In this document: positions 5,108 through 22,966 of the stretch, piece by piece | Position numbering within the stretch: position 1 is the stretch's first letter | Layout of the letters: every line of letters begins with the position of its first letter | From: a virus | Length of the DNA stretch: 39,875 bases | Virus record (IMG/VR): IMGVR_UViG_3300003323_000342 | Span: 1 to 39,875 of that record | Reading direction: 5' to 3' (one strand) | The notes under the pieces: generated by a model | Told to the model about the DNA's origin: nothing | Database searches by the model: none | Seen by the model: the letters and a program-made list of their open reading frames with translations, nothing else | Position numbers and translations under genes: made by a program

Positions 5108-5177
5108 TGGAGCGGAAACAGGGACTCGAACCCTGCTCAGGAGCTTGGAAGGCTCCAATCATCCCTGATGCATCCGC
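5108..5177 (-). tRNA. tRNA-Gly(UCC)-like gene with shortened D-arm
   Basis: On the minus strand the anticodon arm is GGAGC-CTTCCAA-GCTCC, giving anticodon UCC. The T-arm is CAGGG-TTCGAGT-CCCTG and is perfect. The acceptor strands GCGGATG and TTTCCGC pair with one T-T mismatch and one G-U. CCA is encoded at the 3' end. The D-arm is only ATCA-GGGA-TGAT with one linker base, so the whole molecule is 70 nt including CCA. It reads GGA/GGG codons if functional. The short D-loop and imperfect acceptor stem leave open a degenerate or non-translational tRNA-like RNA. Confidence 0.68.
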
Positions 5178-21148: not shown

Positions 21149-21513
21149 TGGTGCCGATTACCAGACACACCATTTCCGAAGTGGCTGCTCACTTCGGTGT
21201 TTCCGAACGCTATTTGAGCGCGACCGCAAGGAAGCATAAGCTCTGTGGCAAGGCTGGACGAAGCCTTTATTTCACCGATGCCGACATAGAAGCACTGGAC
21301 GCATTATGGCACGCCTCAGGCTCTACAAACGAGGAAAAATCTGGTGGCTTGACGGCTCGGTCGATGGACAGCGTATCCGCGAGAGCACGGGAACGGCTAT
21401 TCGGAAAGACGCCGAAGAGCTTGCTGCGAAGCGCGAGCGAGAGCTCCATGTCGAGAAAGTCTACGGCACCGAAGCAATCCTCACATTCGGCGCGGCAACT
21501 GGCCACTACCTAG
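21148..21513 (+). CDS. Excisionase-like HTH protein
   Basis: This 121-aa protein has an N-terminal MerR/AlpA-type helix-turn-helix: HTISEVAAHFGVSERYLSAT (about 7-26) with a wing around GKAGRSLYFTDADIEALDAL. Such proteins bend attachment-site DNA and steer the integrase towards excision. The last 69 residues are Ser/Arg/Lys-rich and are encoded out of frame over the first 208 bases of the integrase gene. The start at 21148 overlaps the previous stop; a longer frame starts at 21136. Confidence 0.72.
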   Translation: MVPITRHTISEVAAHFGVSERYLSATARKHKLCGKAGRSLYFTDADIEALDALWHASGSTNEEKSGGLTARSMDSVSARARERLFGKTPKSLLRSASESSMSRKSTAPKQSSHSARQLATT

Positions 21514-22325
21514 ATGCTGGCAAGAGCGATCGATATGTGGCGCCGATCTTCGCAAAATGGGAGCGCAAGCTCGTGCGTGAGATCAAGCCCGGAAATGTCA
21601 TCGACCTCGCCAAGAAGCTCTATCCCAATGCTGGGCCGGCCACGATGAACAGGCAGGTGATTACGCCGGTTCAGGCCATCATCAACCACTGTGCCAAACG
21701 CGGCATGTGCAGCCCCGTCAGGTTCGAACGGCTGCATGTGCCGGCAAAGGCAAGGCGGGTTGCATCGATCAAATGGCTGGAAGCTTTCATGAAGGCGGCC
21801 ACACCGAATATGGGCGCTTTGGCCCAGTTCATGGCCATGACTGGCGCTCGCATCAGCGAGGCAGTCGCCCTTGATTGGGAGCAAGTAGACCTGAGTACAC
21901 GCACGGCTACGCTGCTGAAGACCAAGAATGGCGACTTCAGGGACGCGGCTTTGCCAAGCGCACTCGTGACAACGCTTCTGGCGCTACCAGGTCGGAAGGA
22001 TAAGGGGAAGGTTTTCGGCTTCAAATCCCGCCAGTCCATTCAGACCGGGTGGGCTTCGACGGAGAAGCGCGCCAAGATCGAGCACATACCGCCTCACGAT
22101 GCCGGTCGGAGGCTATTCGCCACCCTCATGATCCGGTCTGGAGTTGACCCTGTGACTGTCGCTGAAGCAGGCGGATGGAAGAGCAAGAGAATGGTGGTCG
22201 AGGTCTACGCCCAGCCCGACGATCCGCGCAAAGCAGTCGAGCGCACATTTGGTACATTTAGCGCACAGGACGATAGCGCTGCACAGGATAAGTCTTTGGG
22301 AAAGAAAGGAAATATGCTAGGTTAG
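21306..22325 (+). CDS. int: Tyrosine-family integrase
   Basis: The 339-aa enzyme cuts and rejoins attP and attB. Residues about 1-50 are the arm-binding beta domain, about 60-150 the core-binding helices, and the rest is catalytic: R182 (TGARISEAV), a Lys in LLKTKNGD (near 205-207), H264 and R268 (PPHDAGRRLF), W291 in the second His position (GGWKSKR) and the nucleophile Y301 (EVYAQP). All six catalytic positions are filled. The stop lies 5 bases from the attachment core. The start has a poor ribosome site and lies deep in the excisionase gene, so translation is probably coupled. Confidence 0.92.
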   Translation: MARLRLYKRGKIWWLDGSVDGQRIRESTGTAIRKDAEELAAKRERELHVEKVYGTEAILTFGAATGHYLDAGKSDRYVAPIFAKWERKLVREIKPGNVIDLAKKLYPNAGPATMNRQVITPVQAIINHCAKRGMCSPVRFERLHVPAKARRVASIKWLEAFMKAATPNMGALAQFMAMTGARISEAVALDWEQVDLSTRTATLLKTKNGDFRDAALPSALVTTLLALPGRKDKGKVFGFKSRQSIQTGWASTEKRAKIEHIPPHDAGRRLFATLMIRSGVDPVTVAEAGGWKSKRMVVEVYAQPDDPRKAVERTFGTFSAQDDSAAQDKSLGKKGNMLG

Positions 22326-22330
22326 CTCGG

Positions 22331-22372
22331 CCCTTAGCAGGGGTGTGCCTTCGACCACTCGGCCACCTCTCC
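22331..22372 (-). other. attP core: 5' half of a tRNA-Ser(GCU) gene
   Basis: On the minus strand the sequence runs from the tRNA 5' end (GGAGAGG, D-arm GCC-GAGTGGTCGAA-GGC) through the anticodon loop CTGCTAA (anticodon GCU) to the first three bases of the 3' anticodon strand (GGG). The next two bases (CC) no longer pair with the 5' strand, so the identity with the host gene should end there. The position directly after int marks it as the attachment core. The rest of the tRNA is absent, so it is not a working gene in the phage. Confidence 0.85.
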
Positions 22373-22381
22373 ACAAAGGGC

Positions 22382-22411
22382 CTGATACGGGAAAATGCCT
22401 CGGCAGTGCAA
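22382..22411 (-). promoter_or_regulatory. Candidate phage-borne promoter for the rebuilt tRNA-Ser
   Basis: On the minus strand TTGCAC, 18 bases, TATCAG, then 9 bases to the tRNA 5' end. After integration this side of attP should lie upstream of the intact tRNA, so a promoter is expected here. Confidence 0.4.
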
Positions 22412-22558
22412 GGCTTTTGTCGGGGCGGATGGGAAAATCGTGGTGGAGAACAGCCGTTCTGATTTTTGCGCCTTGAGTCGCCTGCTGTGCGTGAACGTGC
22501 GGCGAACGTTGGCACAAATCTGACACAGCTTTGTTCTGCACTTGTTCATGAGGAACTT

Positions 22559-22966
22559 ATGTCCAAGGACGACTATGCCAAGATCGAAGTAACGACCTTT
22601 GTCTACGTGATGGGATGGATGGGTAAGGTGAAGATCGGGATTTCGCGCGATCCGGAAAAGCGACTTCGGCAGCTCCAGTTGGCGAATCCGGGAGAGGTGC
22701 GAATTTTGCACCTGCGCGCTTTCTCGACGCGGCCCAGCGCAGCGTTTGTGGAGCGCGCCCTTCACAAGAAATTCGCAGCTCACCGGCTTTTGGGGGAATG
22801 GTTCGACATTCCCGCCGACCGGGCAGTCAAAGCACTTGATGCTCAGAGAGACCGCCATATCCACCACAAGCACTGGCACCCGAATATGCCTTTCGAGATC
22901 GGCGCGGCCGGCGCCTTGGAACGATGGAAGTGGCACAGGTCTCACGACTTGTCTCTTCCCGCATAA
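22559..22966 (+). CDS. GIY-YIG (T5orf172/MUG113-like) domain protein
   Basis: This 135-aa protein has the elements of the GIY-YIG fold: FVYVMGW in the GIY strand position (about 14-20), VKIGIS in the YIG position (24-29), the Arg of EKRLRQLQ, and the catalytic-type Glu in FVERALHKKF (about 63-72), with GEWFDI closing the domain. This matches the T5orf172/MUG113 branch, many members of which are found in phages. ATG 22559 is preceded by GAGGAA; a longer frame begins at 22466. Activity as a nuclease is likely but unproven. Confidence 0.78.
   Translation: MSKDDYAKIEVTTFVYVMGWMGKVKIGISRDPEKRLRQLQLANPGEVRILHLRAFSTRPSAAFVERALHKKFAAHRLLGEWFDIPADRAVKALDAQRDRHIHHKHWHPNMPFEIGAAGALERWKWHRSHDLSLPA

Follow-up and report, generated by a model that had tools for sequence, protein, structure and literature searches.

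In the textbook case, a phage that integrates into a tRNA gene leaves that gene under its host promoter. The attachment site described here, in which a tRNA gene fragment follows a phage integrase gene, raises the question of what becomes of the host gene when the phage brings the 5′ half of the tRNA, and of which promoter then drives it. The window, i.e., the whole stretch of 39,875 nt that makes up virus record IMGVR_UViG_3300003323_000342, encodes portal, major head, endolysin and Erf-like genes. ARAGORN also called a 70-nt tRNA-Gly(TCC) at 5108–5177 on the minus strand, which was unconfirmed by Rfam at the gathering score.

The attP core and its integrase

The integrase gene (21306–22325, plus strand) encodes a tyrosine recombinase of 339 amino acids with a recognisable catalytic domain (PF00589, E = 4e-19). 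Five bases past its stop codon lies the attP core (22331–22372, minus strand), which reads GGAGAGGTGGCCGAGTGGTCGAAGGCACACCCCTGCTAAGGG from 22372 to 22331 and corresponds to nucleotides 1–42 of tRNA-Ser(GCU), from the first base of the tRNA through the anticodon loop and into the 3′ side of the anticodon stem. The core is identical to the 5′ halves of Devosia tRNA-Ser(GCU) genes, and the sequence thus bears out the first-pass annotation, which had placed the 5′ half of this tRNA, from its 5′ end to the anticodon stem, in attP. The 3′ half is absent from the window and ARAGORN found no complete tRNA-Ser within it. The site therefore has the form expected of a tRNA-targeting integrase system, an attP adjoining int with a tRNA fragment identical to a host gene, yet it carries the 5′ half and so falls outside the usual 3′-half, promoter-keeping subtype. 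It fits instead a 5′-half, promoter-separating subtype, the separation itself being visible in related prophages.

The layout is shared with several relatives. At the corresponding position behind int, three IMG/VR phages (L002–L004), whose integrases are 61–65% identical to that of the window, have a 39-nt core that differs by one base (A/G) at most. The arrangement recurs in two isolated Rhizobium phages, RHph_I1_23 and RHph_TM3_3_3, with integrases 38–39% identical, a Rhizobium-type tRNA sequence and the upstream element TTGATC-N17-TATCAG-N9. Across Rhizobium phages and Devosia prophages together, integrase identity to the window is 33–39%. As related phages are not independent samples, conservation among them lends support but does not amount to a formal test. 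Nevertheless, judged from the sequences, the joint presence of the 5′ half and an upstream element in attP is more than chance. Acidovorax phage ACPWH and Bcep781 were considered as further 5′-half carriers and rejected, as theirs are complete tRNA-Ser genes. Core matches at two other loci (L013 and L018) are explained by prophages with another type of integrase that occupy the 3′ end of this gene.

The element upstream of the core

On the minus strand, TTGCAC (22411–22406) is followed by 18 bases, TATCAG (22387–22382) and nine further bases before tRNA nucleotide 1, exactly as the first-pass annotation had written. This forms part of a candidate host-like tRNA promoter, AAAAGCC-TTGCAC-N18-TATCAG-N9, at 22373–22419 (minus strand). 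A sigma-70 scan of the attP element made no call, and a host-trained matrix was used in its place; the consensus of the scan is of the E. coli type and need not fit an alphaproteobacterial promoter. The training set of this −35/−10 weight matrix comprised 48 promoters of this tRNA gene at empty sites in Devosia and in another, Rhizobium-like genus (that of G102), and excluded the window. Over both strands of the window, the attP element ranked first among 79,750 positions with a score of 15.26, against 11.71 for the runner-up. Its best alignment to a native host promoter scored 15, compared with 5.4 ± 1.7 for shuffled sequences (maximum 14).

The −35 and −10 are kept in all four phages (the window and L002–L004), with the surrounding flanks near background identity. 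In the best cases, 40 (the phage promoter in lysogen G510) and 37 (L002) of the 45 bases upstream of the core are identical to native promoters. This similarity is mostly lost by −61, which indicates that the host-resembling block comprises the promoter together with the 5′ half rather than the half alone. The fit is not universal: the phage promoters in lysogens G003 (TATTAG) and G210 match the Devosia/Rhizobium matrix poorly. The earlier proposal that attP probably holds a replacement promoter is supported by homology to the host and conservation among relatives.

Transcription from a 5′-half promoter would also run antisense into int, from the phage promoter in attP and from the host promoter in attL. 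It could be argued that the main product of the promoter is an RNA antisense to the end of int, on the 3′ side, with tRNA expression secondary, since promoter and 5′ half do point into int at both sites. We consider this unlikely as the main function, because it leaves unexplained both the exact identity of the tRNA half and the host tRNA-promoter style of the element; moreover, the two roles could coexist.

Less probable still is that the upstream element is an arm-type binding site for integrase, IHF or Xis, with the tRNA at attR transcribed by read-through or unexpressed. The element does sit inside attP between the core and the outer sites, where such binding sites occur. However, it occupies about −40 to −10, while recognisable arm-type motifs are found elsewhere: pairs of the TGTGNN-N5-TGTRCC type lie farther out, at about −130 to −155, in attPs and prophage attR regions, and another lies within int. 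The promoter is thus distinct from the arm sites. In the window, the probable P′ site is TGTGTC-AGATT-TGTGCC (22511–22527, minus strand), with similar motifs in other phages, and a probable P site, CTGTGCGCTAAATGTACC, follows the same pattern inside the 3′ end of int (22251–22268, minus strand). A repeat search for arm sites found none; they emerged from comparison of motifs across attPs, and the less strict TGTACG forms, found at the attRs of Devosia and G210, were identified by eye. An arm site would also not be expected to match host tRNA promoters at empty, phage-free chromosomal sites, as this element does, nor to follow the promoter style of a particular host, as in G210, where the phage copy resembles the different style of promoter at its own host’s attL. 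Finally, a small ORF to the right of attP (22559–22966, plus strand; from the ORF list and sequence, GIY-YIG-like by eye) is transcribed away from the core, so that a rebuilt tRNA at attR would probably need its own promoter.

Junctions in related lysogens

If the 5′ half serves integration as proposed, lysogens should hold a complete tRNA gene at one junction and a fragment at the other. An integrase-family profile scan of genome contigs returned none, and no lysogen of the exact window phage was found; the closest integrases in 75 genomes of the genus Devosia are about 36% identical to that of the window. The junctions were instead located by DNA pattern, where the integrase alignment scan had found no relative. 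TATCAG followed by the tRNA 5′ half occurs at seven loci in bacterial genomes, six from Devosia and one from an uncultured Rhizobiales bacterium, from which we infer that the host of the window phage belongs to the Devosiaceae.

Four bacterial genomes carry related prophages at the tRNA-Ser(GCU) site with attL and attR junctions of the kind that the first-pass annotation had predicted. At attL the order is host upstream DNA, host promoter, 5′ half and int; at attR it is phage DNA, promoter, complete tRNA-Ser(GCU) and host downstream DNA. ARAGORN called tRNA-Ser(GCU) at each attR and at none of the attLs. The tRNA is thus rebuilt at one junction and left as a fragment at the other, in these related prophages. 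The native promoter stays behind with the 5′ fragment and the gene that the cell needs sits behind phage DNA, the separation from its own promoter that had been proposed. An arm-type motif is also present at L014, which was initially regarded as belonging to a host and is probably a fifth attR.

In two of the four lysogens, attL and attR lie on separate contigs. In Devosia riboflavina IFO13584 (G004), contig 47 runs from GST and DUF2147 genes through the host promoter and 5′ half into int, and contig 6 runs from phage tail and lysis genes through the promoter and complete tRNA-Ser(GCU) into host genes. Most of the 75 same-genus genomes have two matches to a 28-nt tRNA pattern (the GCU type and a related Ser isoacceptor); this lysogen has three, the one beyond the two junctions being another Ser isoacceptor. 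The junctions of Devosia sp. ZB163 (G003) are each close to a contig end, on two different contigs.

Both junctions are on one contig in G210 (52.7 kb apart) and in G510 (62.9 kb apart), which is the clearest case. The flank left of attL in G510 is 88.3% identical to an empty-site relative over 1500 bp, up to tRNA nucleotide 1, and the flank right of attR is 86.9% identical to the same empty-site locus over 1520 bp. Here the host’s own promoter type (TATCAG) has been replaced by CATAGTTAGG, which is native to other genomes of the genus.

Inside the G210 element, upstream of attR (L113:4638–8929), there are two genes similar to those for an OLD-type ATPase/nuclease and a UvrD-like helicase, by eye a Gabija-like pair. 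Directly downstream of the rebuilt tRNA-Ser is an integrase-like ORF (L113:11868–13217), which suggests that a further element has entered this tRNA gene at its 3′ end, as at L013 and L018.

These observations are consistent with a mechanism in which the integrase would recombine attP with tRNA-Ser(GCU), a single-copy gene in the presumed Devosiaceae host, the crossover probably falling in the anticodon stem-loop. As attP holds the 5′ half, the host promoter would stay at attL with the host 5′ half, facing int, and at attR the 5′ half brought by the phage would join the 3′ half of the host to give the complete gene. The host-type promoter between the core and the P′ arm sites may be of host origin or may owe its host-like form to selection; after integration it would transcribe the rebuilt tRNA. 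We put the probability of this reading as a whole (5′-half integration, reconstruction at attR and transcription from a phage-borne host-type promoter) at roughly 0.88, and would expect the window phage to behave in the same manner. That the core is instead a decayed phage-borne tRNA-Ser gene, or belongs to a lysogeny dependent on a complete complementing tRNA, is scarcely credible: although the unrelated Acidovorax ACPWH and Burkholderia Bcep781 phages do carry complete tRNA-Ser(GCU) genes, the window has none, all relatives share the same truncation, and the attL/attR junctions, where lysogens rebuild the host gene, refute it for the relatives.

Polarity, precedents and possible promoter exchange

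In an order-level survey with the integrase alignment, the tRNA half, where one could be recognised in a relative, was mostly the 3′ half of tRNA-Thr, -Arg or -Val, with the anticodon end adjoining int, as in Rhizobium phage phiU. That phage shares the integrase family and attP geometry of the window phage (anticodon end at int, tRNA half pointing away); however, phiU and most relatives use the 3′ half of these tRNAs and keep the host promoter. In a maximum-likelihood tree the 5′-Ser users fall in three places, requiring at least two changes of polarity. Such changes might be accounted for by a near-symmetric anticodon stem-loop, accessible to integrase in both orientations. Three members of the group that is sister to the clade of the window (L081, L082 and L084) have a common core after int, CCTCGTTGGGGAGGGGTGTCCCACGGACGG, which does not look like a tRNA.

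Carriage of the 5′ half is known but rare, in archaeal pTN3-like elements and a few bacteria. The pTN3-like elements of the Thermococcales use the 5′ half of a tRNA gene as attB, which parts the rebuilt gene from the promoter it had before (PMC8371274); the same logic appears in a supplementary figure legend (PMC5495485). Integration of those elements disrupts the integrase gene, whose promoter is said to drive the rebuilt tRNA, whereas in the window int is intact (it ends at 22325 and the core begins at 22331), as it is beside attL in the relatives, and attP has a separate, host-resembling tRNA-type promoter. In the tRNA-dependent lysogeny of actinobacteriophages, a single-copy host tRNA is disrupted and prophage expression becomes necessary (PMC10865867). 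In that system the host gene stays disrupted and is complemented by a complete tRNA gene of the phage, while the window has no complete phage tRNA of the disrupted isotype; here the gene would be rebuilt, with just the promoter and 5′ half coming from the phage. In S. meliloti, nine of 88 elements have a 5′-end tRNA repeat and keep gene integrity (PMC11476347); promoter replacement is not discussed in that study. The new feature here is a conserved putative replacement promoter, host-like and built into attP, in a family of integrases that has 3′-half users as well.

Upstream of tRNA-Ser(GCU), loci L117–L146 show two sharply different promoter types (CATAGTTAGG and TATCAG) within one genus, and the last ~168 bp upstream of the gene cannot be aligned between genomes that share 91% identity in the flanking gene. 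The type A Rhizobium-like promoters were checked as possible prophage scars; synteny extends across the host genes upstream, and the check revealed no arm motifs. We tentatively suggest, at somewhat less than even odds, that these phages are promoter-swap vehicles for a presumably essential single-copy tRNA, capturing a promoter from one host lineage and imposing it on another (as in G510), and that some of the two native types may be scars of lost prophages.

tRNA-Ser(GCU) reads AGC and AGU codons. After integration, expression of its sole complete copy should depend on viral DNA and no longer on the cell’s own promoter, and the tRNA should thus fall under viral cis-control in every lysogen. 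This would tie the viability of the cell to phage regulatory DNA, and selection would keep the attP promoter host-like. As the integrase family includes both 5′-half and 3′-half users, it allows the switch in polarity to be studied. Such phages may furthermore offer a route for the promoters of essential genes to move between species.
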